Assembly: GCF_019931575.1 (NCBI RefSeq)
Contig: NZ_CP082923.1
Coordinates: 3,782,001-3,846,000 of the forward strand
Reading direction: 5' to 3'
DNA length: 64,000 nucleotides
Source of the DNA: Caulobacter segnis
Lineage (GTDB): Bacteria > Pseudomonadota > Alphaproteobacteria > Caulobacterales > Caulobacteraceae
The notes under the pieces were generated by a model that made no database searches, was not told the DNA's origin, and was given only the letters and a program-made list of their open reading frames with translations. A program made the translations under genes and the position numbers. Numbering within the stretch: position 1 is the stretch's first letter; every line of letters starts with the position of its first letter. Positions 32,205-62,390 of the stretch are shown here, piece by piece.

Positions 32205-32332
32205 CCTTCTTCCCCCTCCGGGGAGGAGGGCTGAAAGCCCGGAGGGGGCAAGTGAAGTGCGTGCTCACACCCTTTGCCCCCACCTGACCGCTGCGCGGTC
32301 GTCCGCCCCCCGGGAGGGGGCGGAAGGTGATA
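32205..32332. repeat. Palindromic G/C-rich intergenic repeat, locus A
   Basis: A type-1 unit (cttcttccccctccgggg, then stem GGGCT-gaa-AGCCC, then cggagggggcaagtg) is followed by a type-2 unit (gcccccacctgaccgc-tgc-gcggtc, then gtccgccccccgggag, then ggcggaaggtgat). It fills the gap between the aldolase start and the histidine kinase stop. Confidence 0.85.
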
Positions 32333-56596: not shown

Positions 56597-56690
56597 GGGG
56601 GTCACTTGCCCCCTCCGCGCTTCGCGCTCCTCCCCCGGAGGGGGAAGAAGGACGGCGGCGCAGGTCAGGTGGGGGCAAGTGACCGGGTCA
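56597..56690. repeat. Palindromic G/C-rich repeat, locus D
   Basis: On the minus strand it is a type-1 unit: cttcttccccctccgggg, then stem GCGC-gaa-GCGC, then ggagggggcaagtga. A truncated type-2 piece (aggtcaggtgggggcaagtg on the plus strand) lies to its right. It fills the gap between capsid stop and gp6 start. Confidence 0.83.
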
Positions 56691-58068: not shown

Positions 58069-58425
58069 ATGACCGACCAGGCCACGCCAAACCTGCCATC
58101 CCGCGACTTCGAGGTGACCGAACGCTTCTATGTCGCGCTCGGGTTCGAGCGAGGCTCCCGCGACGATGGCTGGATGATCCTGCAGCGCGGGAAACTGACG
58201 CTGGAGTTCTTCCCGTTCCCGACGCTGGACCCGTTGGTCAGCAACTTCAGCTGCTGCCTGCGCGTGGACGACCTGGCCGGCTTCCACGCGGTGTGCAAGG
58301 CGGCGGGCGTCGAGGAGAAGACCACCGGATGGCCCCGCCTGCACCCGGCCCGCGAGAGCGGTCCGATGGTCATGGCCTCCCTGATCGACCCGGACGGCAC
58401 GCTGGTGCGGCTCATCCAGAACTGA
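58069..58425 (+). CDS. VOC-fold (glyoxalase/bleomycin-resistance type) protein
   Basis: 118 residues: PSRDFEVTERFYVALGFERG, DGWMILQRGKLTLEFFPF, CCLRVDDLAGFHAV and ASLIDPDGTLVRLIQN. The beta-alpha-beta-beta-beta pattern and ending DPDGTLVRL are typical of the small-molecule-binding bleomycin-resistance-type VOC proteins. It is on the strand opposite the GTA genes, between capsid and protease, and overlaps the protease 3' end by 14 bp. It is not a GTA component; function unknown. Confidence 0.9.
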   Translation: MTDQATPNLPSRDFEVTERFYVALGFERGSRDDGWMILQRGKLTLEFFPFPTLDPLVSNFSCCLRVDDLAGFHAVCKAAGVEEKTTGWPRLHPARESGPMVMASLIDPDGTLVRLIQN

Positions 58426-58834: not shown

Positions 58835-59079
58835 GGCGCGCGCTCCAGTCGGGCTTCGATGCGGGCCAGGCTCTGGCGGCTGGCGGTCGCCTGTTCCTCC
58901 AGCCGCGCCAGGCGCTCGGCGACGGGAGCCTGAGCCTCGAGCCGGCGCTGCATCTCGTCGATCCGGGCCGAGGCGCGGCCGGTCCACAGCAGGGCGGCGG
59001 CGAACTGCAGGGCCACGGCGACCAGGACGGCGGCCGAGACCTGGCGATCGAGGCGCCAGCGGTTGGCCGGCGCGCTCAA
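58831..59079 (-). CDS. GTA gp3.5: small membrane protein
   Basis: 82 residues. One transmembrane helix (about 13-33, VSAAVLVAVALQFAAALLW) is followed by a coiled coil (IDEMQRRLEAQAPVAERLAR). Position between portal and protease, size and topology match gp3.5 of RcGTA. It starts with TTG overlapping the portal stop (TTGA). Confidence 0.78.
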   Translation of the reverse strand: MSAPANRWRLDRQVSAAVLVAVALQFAAALLWTGRASARIDEMQRRLEAQAPVAERLARLEEQATASRQSLARIEARLERAP

Positions 59080-60227
59080 TGCTCCAGCCCCGCCAGCCGG
59101 CGACGCTCGGCGTCGGTGAGGAAGCTCGCGGCCTGCAAGCGGCTCCACAGGGCGTCGCGCTCAGCCGATAGGGCCGGGACGGCGTCCAGGTCGGGGGCGA
59201 TCCGCGCGCCGGGGAACTTGCCGCCCAGCCAGCCGGTCAGGGCCCGCGCCGCGCGCTCGGCCAGCGGGACCACCGTCCCGCGCCAGAAGGCGGCGTTGGC
59301 CTCGCGATAGTTGGCGTAGGTGTTGTCGCCGGGGATGCCCAGCAACTGTGGCGGTACGCCGAACGCCAGGGCGATCTCGCGGGCGGCGGCGTGCTTGCCC
59401 TGCGTGAAGTCCATCTCGGCCGGGGTCAGCGACATGGCCCGCCAGTCGAGGCCGCCTTCCAGCAAGAGCGGCCGGCCGGCGTTGGCCTGGCCCGAATGGG
59501 TGGCGGCCAGCTCGGTCTTCAGCCGGTCGAACTGCTCGTCGGTCAGGCGGTCGCCGGCGTCCTTGCTGCTGTAGACCAGCGCCCCCGAGGGCCGGGCCGA
59601 ATTGTCCAGCAGCGCCTTATTCCAGGCGCTGGAGGCGTTGTGGACGTCGATGGCGAAGGCGGCCGCCTCCAGCGGCGAGAAGCCGTAGTGGTCGTGGGTC
59701 GGGTTGAACAGCTTCAGGTGCAGTATGGGCAGCCAGCCGTCGCCGTCACGCCCGATCCGCGCCGTGCGCCCGGCGGCCTGGTAGTCGTAGGCCAGCGGCC
59801 AGCCGCGCGGTCCGGGGACCACCGTCATCCGGTCGGGGCGCAGGGCGTAGAGCTCGGTGGGCGCGCCGTCCCCGGCCGCCTCCAGATAGGCGTTGCCGGC
59901 CACCTGCAGACTCCCGAAGAACCCCTCCATCAGGTCGGCCCCGCCCTGCTCGGGATTGGGCCGGTCGAGGAGGCGCTTGAGCGGGTGATCGTCCGCGCGC
60001 CGACCGTTCGCGAACACGGCCAGCGGCGTCGAGGCGGCCGCCTCGGCGATCAGCCGCACGCAGCGATAGGCGACAGGGTTCTTCGCGAATCCCTCGGCCG
60101 CCAGCGCGCCATAGTCCCGCGGCGTCCACTGCGGCCGCCCGCCGGTGGTCAGGGCGATCAGCCGCGCGGCGCGGGAGTCCTTGTGTTCGCGCCGGGGATT
60201 GGGCGGGCGGGGTTTGAAGAGGGGCAT
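59076..60227 (-). CDS. GTA gp3: portal protein (HK97 family)
   Basis: 383 residues: PVAYRCVRLIAEAAASTPLA, HPLKRLLDRPNPEQGGADLM, QVAGNAYLEAAGDGAPTELY, NASSAWNKALLDNSARPSGA and LAFGVPPQLLGIPGDNTYAN, all typical of the phage portal family PF04860. It forms the DNA entry ring. The ATG at 60227 (MPLFKPRPPNPRR) is the normal start. Confidence 0.95.
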   Translation of the reverse strand: MPLFKPRPPNPRREHKDSRAARLIALTTGGRPQWTPRDYGALAAEGFAKNPVAYRCVRLIAEAAASTPLAVFANGRRADDHPLKRLLDRPNPEQGGADLMEGFFGSLQVAGNAYLEAAGDGAPTELYALRPDRMTVVPGPRGWPLAYDYQAAGRTARIGRDGDGWLPILHLKLFNPTHDHYGFSPLEAAAFAIDVHNASSAWNKALLDNSARPSGALVYSSKDAGDRLTDEQFDRLKTELAATHSGQANAGRPLLLEGGLDWRAMSLTPAEMDFTQGKHAAAREIALAFGVPPQLLGIPGDNTYANYREANAAFWRGTVVPLAERAARALTGWLGGKFPGARIAPDLDAVPALSAERDALWSRLQAASFLTDAERRRLAGLEH

Positions 60228-60284
60228 GGGACGCTCCCGACGGATTGAGAACAAAGAAAGAACGACCTAGAGTGGCGAAACCCG

Positions 60285-60334
60285 CCTTCTTCCCCCTTCG
60301 GGGGAGGAGGGCCGCAGGCCCGGAGGGGGCCAGT
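60285..60334 (+). repeat. Palindromic type-1 repeat unit, locus F (left of DUF559 gene)
   Basis: cttcttcccccttcggggga, then stem GGGCC-gca-GGCCC, then ggagggggcc. A complete type-1 unit in plus orientation, ending 13 bases before the DUF559 start. Locus G carries the same unit inverted on the other side of the gene. Confidence 0.88.
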
Positions 60335-60347
60335 CAGGGAGTTCGCG

Positions 60348-60734
60348 ATGTCAGCGCCCAAGACGACCGTCGCCAACGCGCGGCGCCTCAGGAAGGAAAT
60401 GTCCAAGCCGGAATTGAATCTGTGGCGCGCCCTCAGGCGCGGCGCACTCGATGATCACAAGTTTCGAAGACAGCACCCGATCGGGCCCTACGTGCTCGAC
60501 TTCTTCTGCTCGGCGCTGAGGCTGGCCGTGGAGGTCGATGGCTACGATCATTGCGTCGGGTCGCGGCCTCGGCGAGACTTGACGCGTGACCAGTGGCTGA
60601 CCGCCATGGGGGTGCGAACGCTGCGAATTCCGGCACGCGAAGTGATGGCCTCCATGGACGACACGCTCTCCACGATCCGAGACCTCATCGCTCGCTTGCC
60701 CCCTCCGGATGCTTCGCATCCTCCTCCCCCGTAG
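60348..60734 (+). CDS. DUF559 (Vsr-like) endonuclease domain protein
   Basis: 128 residues. ARRLRKEMSKPELNLWRALR, DDHKFRRQHPIGPYVLDFFC, LRLAVEVDGYDHC and GVRTLRIPAREVMASMDDTL are the DUF559/MTES_1575-type restriction-endonuclease-like fold, related to Vsr nucleases. E and D of AVEVDG are the likely metal ligands. It lies on the strand opposite the GTA genes, between terminase and portal. The last residues (LPPPDASHPPPP) are encoded by repeat unit G. A complete inverted pair of repeats therefore flanks it. Confidence 0.9.
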   Translation: MSAPKTTVANARRLRKEMSKPELNLWRALRRGALDDHKFRRQHPIGPYVLDFFCSALRLAVEVDGYDHCVGSRPRRDLTRDQWLTAMGVRTLRIPAREVMASMDDTLSTIRDLIARLPPPDASHPPPP

Positions 60735-60790
60735 GGGGAAGAAGGGCCGCGGCGTCCTCCGGGCCACCTCCCCCGCATCGCGGGAGAGGA
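60697..60790. repeat. Palindromic repeat, locus G (right of DUF559 gene)
   Basis: On the minus strand it is a type-1 unit: cttcttccccctacggggga, then stem GGATGC-gaa-GCATCC, then ggagggggcaa, inverted relative to locus F. A second shorter type-1-like half (ggccacctcccccgcatcgc) follows. It overlaps the DUF559 3' end and nearly abuts the terminase stop. Confidence 0.86.
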
Positions 60791-60796
60791 TCTTGA

Positions 60797-62137
60797 TCAC
60801 AGAGCCCGCAGCCTCGGTGTTCGACCGACACCCAGCATCAACTCGCTCACCGCCCAGACCAGGGCGTCGGCGCGGTCGGGGCTGTGTTCCAGTTCGCCGG
60901 AGCCCAGGGCCATCAGCTCCTCCTCCAGTGCAACGAAGGCGCCGCAGTGGAGGACGCGGCCTTGTTCGTACAGAGCCGCCACGGGTTCGGCCCGAGCGCG
61001 CTTGCCCACCGAGGCCCGCACCAGCTTGACCCGGCACGGCGGGTCGGCCTGGGCCAGGACGCTGCGGACCATGTCGCCGCCCTGGTTGGCCTCGGCCACG
61101 AGGGCGTCGGCGGTCCAGGCCCGCGCGGCCGCGACCGCCTTCGCGGCCCAGCCGGCGGGGGAAAGGCCGCGCGCGGTCTCGTCGGCCAGGACGAAGGCGC
61201 GGTCGTCGCGGCGGCCAACGACCACGATCCCGCAGGCGTCGCCGGTCGCCGTGGCGGGCGGGTCGACGGCGACCACCACGCGGTCCAGCCGCGCGGGCCG
61301 GGCCGCCCGGCATCGCGCCAGGTCCTCGGCGCGGAACAGGCCGCCGTCGCTCTCGACGATCACCCCGTCCAGCTCCTGAGCGGCCAGGCGGGTGCCGCCA
61401 TAGAGGCTCTCCAGCGTGCGCAGGAAGGCCGGGGCCAGGTTGGCGGCGTTGGCGACCGTGCCCGCGCGGCTGACATGGACCCCCGGCTCGGCCATCAGGG
61501 CCTTCAGCGCCCGCAGCGGGCGCGGCGTCGAGGTCACGACCAGGCGCGGATCCTCGCCCAGCCGCAGGCCGAAGCGCAGCATGGCCAGGGTCTCAGCGGG
61601 CTTGGGCCAGGCGCAGAATTCGTCGGCCCAGGCGGCGTGGAACTGTGGCCCGCGCAGGCTGTCGGGATCCTCGGCCGAGAAGGCGTAGGCGGTGGCGCCG
61701 TTGGGCCAGACCAGGCGCCGGCGCGAGGCCTCCCAGCGCGGGCGGAACAGCGGCCCGCCCATCGCCTTCAGCCCCGACGGCCCCTCGATCATCACCTCGC
61801 GCACGTCGTGCAGGGTGGGCCCGACCAGGGCCAGCGCCGGATAGGTTAGGGCGTTCCAAGTGATCCAGCGCGCCCCGGCGAAGGTCTTGCCCGCGCCGCG
61901 CCCGCCCAGCATCAGCCAAGTGGTCCAAGACTTGTAGTCCGGCGCCTGCTGATGCTCGAGCGGGTCAGCCAGGATCGCGCTGAGCAGGCGCTGCTGGTCC
62001 AGCGGCTCCAGCCCCGCCGTCGCTTCCGCCATCAGCTTGATCCGCTCGCCGCTTTCGCTCGACGAGATCAGCGATGCGAGCAAAGCGGGCGACAAGAGCG
62101 GCCTGAATTTCCTCGGGGTCGTCCGGGATGTCGGCAT
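60797..62137 (-). CDS. GTA gp2: terminase large subunit
   Basis: About 446 residues from the ATG at 62137. The ATPase has Walker A LGGRGAGKT (about residue 78) and Walker B-like AAWADEFCAWPKP. The nuclease domain has VVVAVDPPATATGDACG, ALVAEANQGGD and HSPDRADALVWAV. It packages host DNA into GTA heads. The N-terminal LISSSESGERIKLMAEATAG fits family N-termini, which favours 62137 over a later ATG at 62032. The 62137 start overlaps gp1 by 173 bp in a different frame. Confidence 0.92.
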   Translation of the reverse strand: MPTSRTTPRKFRPLLSPALLASLISSSESGERIKLMAEATAGLEPLDQQRLLSAILADPLEHQQAPDYKSWTTWLMLGGRGAGKTFAGARWITWNALTYPALALVGPTLHDVREVMIEGPSGLKAMGGPLFRPRWEASRRRLVWPNGATAYAFSAEDPDSLRGPQFHAAWADEFCAWPKPAETLAMLRFGLRLGEDPRLVVTSTPRPLRALKALMAEPGVHVSRAGTVANAANLAPAFLRTLESLYGGTRLAAQELDGVIVESDGGLFRAEDLARCRAARPARLDRVVVAVDPPATATGDACGIVVVGRRDDRAFVLADETARGLSPAGWAAKAVAAARAWTADALVAEANQGGDMVRSVLAQADPPCRVKLVRASVGKRARAEPVAALYEQGRVLHCGAFVALEEELMALGSGELEHSPDRADALVWAVSELMLGVGRTPRLRAL

Positions 62138-62390
62138 GCATGGAGACCTCGTCGTCGTCATTGGCCGCCTCGTCGGCGGGGGGCTTGGCGTTAGGCTCGG
62201 GAACCATGGTCGCGATCGCCTTGGCCGAGCGCGCGAAGACGCCGCAGGTGCGGGCCTCCTTCTCGATCTGGGCGATTTCGGCGGGATCCTTGGTCGCTTC
62301 GAGCCGGGTCCAGAGGGCGCTCAGTCGCCCCATGAGGCGGGTCTGCAGCGTCTCGCTCCAGTCCCTGACCTCGTCGCTTCTTCCGGCCAT
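61965..62390 (-). CDS. GTA gp1: putative small terminase
   Basis: 141 residues, largely helical and acidic in the middle (ADEAANDDDEV). N-terminal RDWSETLQTRLMGRLSALWT and ARTCGVFARSAKAIATM, C-terminal IQAALVARFARIADLVERKR. It is the first gene of the cluster and precedes the large terminase. RcGTA gp1 in this position acts as small terminase, so this role is inferred from position and helical character, not from a recognised motif. The 3' end overlaps gp2. Confidence 0.7.
   Translation of the reverse strand: MAGRSDEVRDWSETLQTRLMGRLSALWTRLEATKDPAEIAQIEKEARTCGVFARSAKAIATMVPEPNAKPPADEAANDDDEVSMHADIPDDPEEIQAALVARFARIADLVERKRRADQADGGSDGGAGAAGPAAPAQRDPG

Follow-up and report, generated by a model that had tools for sequence, protein, structure and literature searches.

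The R-DUF559-R' block described here, which spans 461 nt (60285-60745) of a 64,000-nt window from Caulobacter segnis (the window being the whole stretch of DNA analyzed), is likely a member of a family of REPtron-like minimal mobile elements whose enzyme is unrelated to the RAYT transposases. The closest known systems are the REPtron, a RAYT (TnpA-REP) gene with flanking REPs, and the REPINs (PMC3116915, PMC3733652, PMC8266576). While the movement of the block is shown by genome comparison, recognition and cutting of the repeats by the nuclease are inferred, and no biochemistry is available. A first-pass annotation, made from the sequence alone, had proposed either a small mobile unit or, by analogy with RAYTs and REPs, the enzyme that spreads the repeats. 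The former is supported by precise boundaries, copies within one genome and empty sites. The latter is supported only indirectly, through a clade-specific copy-number correlation and the congruence of repeat types with the nuclease tree; DUF559 is probably responsible for the spread of the many similar hairpins of these genomes.

The block in the window and its nuclease

The block lies antisense between the portal and terminase-like genes of a GTA-like cluster that also contains capsid and protease genes (Table 1). Its inverted arms (60285-60310 and 60720-60745) are 26 nt long, 96% complementary and 409 nt apart, with P1 directed outward on both sides, and the longer type C unit matches at 60287-60330 (+) and 60698-60743 (-), given as genome coordinates minus 3782000. 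In each repeat unit, an outer hairpin (P1) is joined by an inner one (P2) and a tail rich in G; when the left unit was folded as ssDNA, pairing was found slightly 3' of the P2 assigned by eye. The final codons of the DUF559 gene (LPPPDASHPPPP) extend into the right arm. Two claims of the first-pass annotation, namely a DUF559 gene between inverted repeats, antisense between portal and terminase, and an overlap of the repeat with its last codons, have thereby held, with the reservation that the terminase is named on a weak match.

Table 1. Coordinates of the block, its parts and related features in the window.
Feature	Position	Strand	Remarks
Left repeat unit R, type C	60285..60336	+	outer hairpin P1, inner palindrome P2, G-rich tail
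P1 of left unit R	60285-60310		CCTTCTTCCCCC-ttc-GGGGGAGGAGG
P2 of left unit R	~60309-60321		judged by eye
G-rich tail of left unit R	60322-60329		
DUF559 gene	60348..60734	+	complete ORF, 128 aa, Vsr-like PD-(D/E)XK nuclease
Right repeat unit R', type C, inverted	60693..60745	-	runs over final codons of the DUF559 gene
Extra right-arm remnant, other GTA-locus repeat subtype	60756..60793	-	blastn
HK97-type portal gene, GTA cluster, left neighbour	59076..60254	-	TIGR01537, E 2e-59
Terminase large subunit-like gene, right neighbour	60797..62161	-	weak match only, E 7.1e-4, below cut-off
Type C repeat unit, no gene	56608..56649	-	genome 3838608-3838649
Type C and type D units, 26 nt apart, no gene	32207..32323	n/a	

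The additional remnant to the right of the block is 89-97% like the arms in L126, L127 and L130 (blastn and sequence) and was, by inference, likely left behind by an earlier module. Compared with shuffled sequences, folding of the window units as ssDNA gave a moderate gain (z -2.1 left, -1.4 right), and that of one type A and one type B unit a strong one (z -4.7 and -4.6). An Rfam scan of 60200-60850 returned MIR7532 as its sole match, far below threshold (21.6 vs 100 bits), and a repeat search of the whole window yielded GC-rich matches, with the type C repeat absent from the 20 families shown. A further antisense ORF within the GTA cluster (58069-58425, +) was noticed, which we take by eye to be a VOC/glyoxalase-like protein.

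The protein encoded in the block belongs to DUF559 (PF04480; 99.7 bits vs a curated cut-off of 20.6, E 1.1e-28) and is one of the Vsr-like PD-(D/E)XK nucleases of ~110-140 aa that are the only gene of such elements. The active-site-type residues E22, D51, E62, D64, H68 and D77 are intact in the window protein and, together with R80 and R93, invariant in 95/95 bracketed DUF559 proteins, the only ones counted. An AlphaFold2 model built from 21 aligned sequences (pLDDT 84.7) has its top PDB match in NGO0050 (3hrl, E 5e-7, 38% identity), followed by the Vsr-like homing endonuclease I-Bth0305I (3r3p, E 1.3e-4), and a weak match to Vsr itself (1vsr, E 0.047). Several Toxoplasma mitoribosome proteins (9i05, 9g6k), which we take to be possibly RAP-domain proteins, also match the fold with E 8e-4 to 1e-1. 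The family is under purifying selection, with a median dN/dS of 0.17 over 582 pairs (GTA site: 0.11, 31 pairs) and a maximum of 0.34; some genes entered these pairs twice, as loci fetched twice were not merged. No HUH/Y1 domain was detected in the window gene, for which the Pfam scan returned only DUF559 and, below cut-off, MTES_1575, and known transposase domains were likewise absent according to Pfam and NCBIfam.

Inverted repeats flank DUF559 genes and follow the nuclease clade

Bracketing was scored as the best inverted match between two 300-nt flanks, with a cut-off of 40. Both DUF559 genes found in the source genome are bracketed (2/2), the second one (L001) by inverted type A units with a local inverted score of 94. 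In the family of the host, this applies to 64/80 DUF559 loci vs 4/362 other genes of the same loci, one of the latter (L069) being itself a DUF559 gene, and at a score of at least 80 to 42/80 vs 0/362. These 80 loci, mostly of ~10 kb, are not a random draw: they were hand-picked from among the best-scoring matches, and several share one genome. A set of 79 named loci, mostly from Caulobacterales and Sphingomonadales with a few others (e.g. Bauldia, Stenotrophomonas terrae and a Planctomycetaceae MAG), gave 63 bracketed DUF559 genes vs 0/86 controls. The remaining 16/80 family loci and 16/79 named loci fall below the score. P1 points mostly outward across the 80 loci and, by eye, inward in L094 and L097. 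In a phylum-wide sample, DUF559 was found in 37/120 genomes; from 29 loci, five with short weak matches (L317-L321) were set aside, and 13 of the other 24 scored at least 40, here without a control set. Bracketing by chance was rejected on the control counts (4/362 and 0/86). In Caulobacterales and Sphingomonadales, inverted hairpin repeats regularly accompany DUF559 genes on both sides, and the check that had been proposed along with the first-pass annotation came out in its favour (64/80 and 63/79). Its notion of "the repeat" as one sequence needs correction, since the repeats comprise many types, each tracking its own DUF559 clade.

This follows from a comparison of nucleases with their arms. 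From 140 DUF559 matches, 117 were unique and 96 scored at least 40, 95 of which entered the Mantel test, the tree and the above residue counts, to the exclusion of unbracketed genes. Distances between DUF559 proteins and between arms are correlated (Mantel r 0.755, n=95, p 5e-4), and this is also seen at the GTA site alone (r 0.645, n=26; 0.61 as partial correlation on the portal, p 2e-4), where portal and arms give r 0.33. For those 43 of the 95 with a divergent DUF559 partner in the same genome, the arms were closer to the arms of the most similar DUF559 from a different genome than to those of the divergent partner in 41 cases. On the DUF559 tree, 13 arm types require 13 changes (minimum 12), compared with a mean of 52 and a minimum of 46 after shuffling; other cut-offs for the types gave 17 changes for 17 types and 10 for 9. 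For the 65 host genomes, mapped as labels on the same tree, 82 changes are required (minimum 64). Comparison hence shows the repeat type to travel with the nuclease clade and not with the host. Such co-variation of gene and arms demonstrates joint travel, which would follow from block movement even without recognition of the arms by the enzyme.

The block moves as a unit

Bracketed modules with 1200 nt of flank were compared all against all by blastn, retaining the best segment per pair (978 pairs), and the 946 pairs whose flanks reached 300 nt or more were kept. In 602 of these, homology reaches less than 60 nt beyond the outer arm ends on either side, in some cases ending inside the module. 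Another 339/946 pairs share at least 150 nt past the arms on one side or more, i. e. a common neighbourhood, and merely 5/946 are intermediate. Of the 602, 483 pairs have alignments of 420 nt or longer, and here the overshoot has a median of 0 nt on the left and -1 nt on the right, with 5-95% ranges of -27 to 7 and -54 to 8, respectively. Moreover, 29/602 pairs, 27 with an alignment of that length, stem from one and the same genome and have unrelated flanks. The best of them, from G164, is 97.6% identical over 535 nt and lies on two contigs.

One module of this G164 pair is situated between PCuAC-like and M13-peptidase-like genes (names by eye). The orthologous site was read in 8/30 loci, those closest to the query. 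It is empty in G191 and G194, with gaps of 85 and 87 nt vs 651 nt in G164, which corresponds to an insertion of 564 nt relative to G194. In G201 and G204 (128 and 103 nt), no such repeat was seen by eye; G207 has only a single P1 hairpin and G206 a different kind of palindromic pair. G199 (L265) carries a DUF559 module of 81% identity that is reversed with respect to that of G164 (L263), possibly by arm-mediated inversion or by independent insertion. At the L001 site, both neighbouring genes were found in 18/30 genus loci, and among the 30 only the source genome holds DUF559. A type A pair without a gene is present in L164, pairs of other types in L155 and L159, and a lone hairpin in L158, and no pair was seen by eye in L169 and L172; palindromic pairs of unrelated kinds occupy several of the other loci. 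Taken together, comparison shows that R-gene-R' is copied as a unit whose ends are the outer repeat edges and which may occupy an orthologous site, be missing from it or lie there in reverse.

A duplicated target was not found: the mean direct-repeat length around 36 type A modules is 2.5 vs 2.28 in shuffled sequence (sd 0.18), and none is visible at the empty G164 orthologous site. A GGACG-like target, suggested by a first look at the outer flanks, was dropped after counts over 106 type A flanks. These show (A/G)AAYC next to P1, reaching up to 1.4 bits at position -1, and a weak excess of G near -17. The former could conceivably be an element end or a preferred target, and no target motif is claimed from the 106 flanks.

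A further observation, made by eye, concerns the gap after an oxygenase gene (L154-L183), where many unrelated palindromic pairs occur across relatives: CGTCATTCCCGC- or GTCATTCCCGC-like ones in L160 and L175, CGTCATCCCGCGC-like or similar ones in L165 and L168, and GGGGACA-like ones in L176, L177 and L182. Read in this way, the gap is likely an insertion hotspot.

The portal-terminase gap itself tells a different part of the history. A portal search matched 44/61 genomes of the genus, and loci were taken for the best 30 (the source genome and 29 others), of which L140 was cut off, leaving 28 readable relatives. An antisense DUF559 gene lies between portal and terminase in 27/28, and L151 (G146) has a gene-less type B pair in its place. 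Bracketing of at least 40 applies to 25/27, the exceptions being L138 (39) and L150 (18). DUF559 at this site is 45-85% identical to the window copy and the portal 82-95%. In 129 genome pairs the portals share 90% identity or more, yet DUF559 identity is under 65% in 89 of these, and the correlation between portal and DUF559 is only 0.27 (r). Accordingly, two simple histories were rejected: a recent insertion by the occupancy of 27/28 relatives, and a plain vertical GTA gene by the 89/129 close-portal pairs. The gap is more likely an old site at which modules were repeatedly replaced by different members of the family. Empty sites between portal and terminase, which the first-pass annotation had suggested to look for, were hence not what the relatives offered, as 27/28 carry DUF559, often a different one, and the other the gene-less pair.

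Gene-less repeats, proposed mechanism and rival explanations

Type A repeats occur in 55/199 and type B repeats in 132/199 genomes of the family, and a search with the pattern reversed, as a control, yielded 0 matches in the listed rows. The total number of DUF559 genes is correlated with that of A and B repeats (rho 0.56; within-genus r 0.45, p 5e-5). Taken genus by genus, the correlation is significant in g1 and g7 and not in g3 (p 0.08), g15 and g22. At least five A+B repeats are present in 5/36 DUF559-negative vs 95/163 DUF559-positive genomes. The relation becomes specific once clades are separated. With the A-clade set by our own cut at 55% identity or more to L001 (counted by hand, partial copies included), A-clade copies and A repeats in 39 genomes of the genus give rho 0.82, 0.71 after accounting for genome size, and 0.59 after additionally subtracting two repeats per A-clade gene, compared with 0.14 for A-clade copies and B repeats. 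Other DUF559 genes and A repeats give 0.25 (p 0.13), or -0.02 after genome size. The link for type B is weak (non-A DUF559 and B repeats: rho 0.28, p 0.09; partial on genome size 0.24, p 0.07), in a test for which no B clade was defined.

For type C, it was predicted before the search that the six genomes whose GTA site holds the window DUF559 clade would be rich in these repeats. This held (p 3.6e-4), with 10-74 copies in these six (median 30, module arms included) and a median of 0 in the other 23; exceptions, lacking this clade at that site, are G211 and G224 (24 each), G201 (19) and G138 (12). Type D, not predicted beforehand, amounts to 23-71 copies in four D-clade genomes, compared with a median of 5 and a maximum of 45 in the remaining 25 (p 1.6e-3). 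None of these clade-repeat count tests was corrected for relatedness within the genus. Comparison thus shows gene-less A, C and D repeats to be more numerous in genomes with the matching nuclease clade. Orphan repeats exist as well. G081 holds 78 type A+B repeats, and no DUF559 was found there; as several of the repeats are only 14-16 nt away from a contig end, modules may have dropped out in assembly gaps. G197 has 53 type A repeats and no A-clade DUF559, which may have been lost after the spread.

In the proposed mechanism, the nuclease would recognize its cognate R, probably in hairpin form within single-stranded or cruciform DNA, and cut at the outer base of P1, whereupon host repair or replication would reinsert the block elsewhere without target duplication. 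A gene-less R-R' pair would be moved with the enzyme acting in trans, type A and B pairs being the miniature form, so that the system may resemble RAYT-REPIN in operation, with a differently folded enzyme. The gap between GTA portal and terminase is read as an old site, settled time and again by different family members. A bolder reading, towards which the balance tips only slightly, is that DUF559 constitutes a second, independent class of repeat-spreading enzymes beside the RAYTs, in which each clade mobilizes its own two-hairpin repeat; many GC-rich palindromic repeats in Alphaproteobacteria and other Pseudomonadota would then go back to these clades collectively.

Several rival explanations have to be weighed against the REPtron-like reading. 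Unlikely, though a co-moving passenger nuclease remains possible and is not excluded, is that R-R' is moved in trans by another enzyme, e.g. a RAYT or IS200-type transposase, with DUF559 as a hitch-hiker or a defence or repair gene. In favour of this, PD-(D/E)XK nucleases on their own are not known to transfer or join strands; repeats persist without matching DUF559 in G081 and G197; and C. crescentus VsrA has been proposed to act in mismatch repair (PMC12907096). Against it, the DUF559 frame occupies most of the space in the blocks read (window, L001, L062), the arm type tracks the DUF559 tree, and A repeats track A-clade DUF559 and not other DUF559. Similarly unlikely is a free-standing Vsr-like homing endonuclease of the EDxHD type that cleaves allelic sites lacking it, repair then copying it in, with the repeats as binding sites or a hotspot. 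I-Bth0305I as the second-best fold match (3r3p, E 1.3e-4) would suit this, as would a GTA site that is nearly always occupied (27/28) and re-colonized. Yet, allelic homing does not give 29 same-genome pairs in unrelated flanks, both arms travel with the gene, and gene-less copies spread too.

A settled housekeeping gene of the GTA cluster with hairpins as terminators is very unlikely. Its synteny in 27/28 readable relatives and the purifying selection (dN/dS 0.11 at the GTA site) speak for it, but DUF559 below 65% in 89/129 close-portal pairs is unlike a vertically kept gene, the portal-DUF559 correlation is only 0.27, and the same kind of unit is found at many other sites. All but excluded is that pre-existing repeats recombined around an ordinary nuclease gene, with brackets arising by chance or at a hotspot. 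Some intergenic sites do gather many unrelated palindromic elements, such as that after the oxygenase gene, but controls are bracketed in only 4/362 and 0/86 cases, and the arm type tracks DUF559 rather than the genome (41/43). This version, in which the nuclease is carried along by recombination between repeats, had been the alternative offered by the first-pass annotation and explains the clade-specific pattern less well.

Returning to the REPtron-like reading, the likeness to known systems lies in a small enzyme gene between palindromic repeats that are also scattered elsewhere in the genome, in the occurrence, for types A and B, of inverted pairs lacking a gene in those genomes, and in the joint divergence of enzyme and repeat. 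In contrast to a REPtron, DUF559 is a Vsr-like PD-(D/E)XK nuclease and not an HUH/Y1 transposase, and its unit has two hairpins and no visible terminal GTAG tag. With classical insertion sequences the block shares terminal inverted repeats at its exact ends, while no target duplication and no known transposase domain were found. I-Bth0305I and other EDxHD homing endonucleases have a related fold (3r3p) and a nuclease gene able to spread itself. However, DUF559 has ectopic copies with their own inverted arms, gene-less repeats have spread, and a restriction to allelic sites is not met, given the 29 same-genome pairs with unrelated flanks. NGO0050 (3hrl) is the best structural match (E 5e-7, 38% identity). 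The DUF559/Vsr-like fold is also shared by the Vsr endonuclease, which the model of the window protein matches weakly (1vsr, E 0.047), and by the DUF559 protein VsrA (CCNA_02930), which acts in Caulobacter. VsrA differs in that it is a proposed mismatch-repair enzyme, and the relevant sections of PMC12907096 do not mention palindromic repeats; a repair role for some DUF559 members is possible.

No paper linking DUF559 to palindromic repeats was found in the open-licence literature searched (judged from titles, term counts and abstract openings). Palindromic repeats occupy intergenic space in many bacteria. If the proposal is true, a "domain of unknown function" would gain a role in spreading cognate repeats, a transposition-like process would rest on a PD-(D/E)XK nuclease where HUH or DDE enzymes normally serve, and recognition could be tested on numerous naturally occurring pairs of enzyme and repeat. 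The interpretation of Caulobacter VsrA, a DUF559 protein with a proposed part in mismatch repair (PMC12907096), would be affected as well. R-DUF559-R' blocks, with 461 nt in the window and 564 nt for the G164 insertion, would be among the smallest self-mobilizing DNA elements.

The orientation of gene-less pairs differs between repeat types. Near pairs of type A (9/9) and type B (20/21) are tails-facing, with median gaps of 73 and 47.5 nt, whereas 20/26 near pairs of types C and D (18 C/D, 2 C/C) are head to head with gaps of 8-18 nt, as are 5/8 of the sphingomonad type S. C-D heterodimers of this kind, opposite to the A and B pairs, were noticed in L003-L014, L128, L131 and L136; the window pair at 32207-32323 (C+ D-) is tails-facing, unlike the usual C-D pairs. 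Hence, pairs of types C, D and S do not fit simply as the gene-less form of the module, and the head-to-head pairing of type C with type D is a difference from REPINs. As a mere guess, head-to-head C, D and S pairs might represent the joint of abutted ends.

A GTAG tag was not found in position counts just outside P1 for types A, B and S, nor, by eye only, for types C and D, and GTAG does occur inside the loops of some units. CGTC repeats are short palindromic repeats found mainly in Alphaproteobacteria including C. crescentus, apparently without a dedicated transposase (PMC3733652). Types A-D are likewise short palindromic repeats of Alphaproteobacteria, but, as judged by eye against the text description, do not fit its stems of 8-9 bp, which start with AT pairs and have a CCA tail. 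Membership of type C in the CGTC super-family is nonetheless possible: CGTC directly precedes P1, by eye, in 5/10 readable type C copies of the source genome (L004, L009, L010, L011 and L014).
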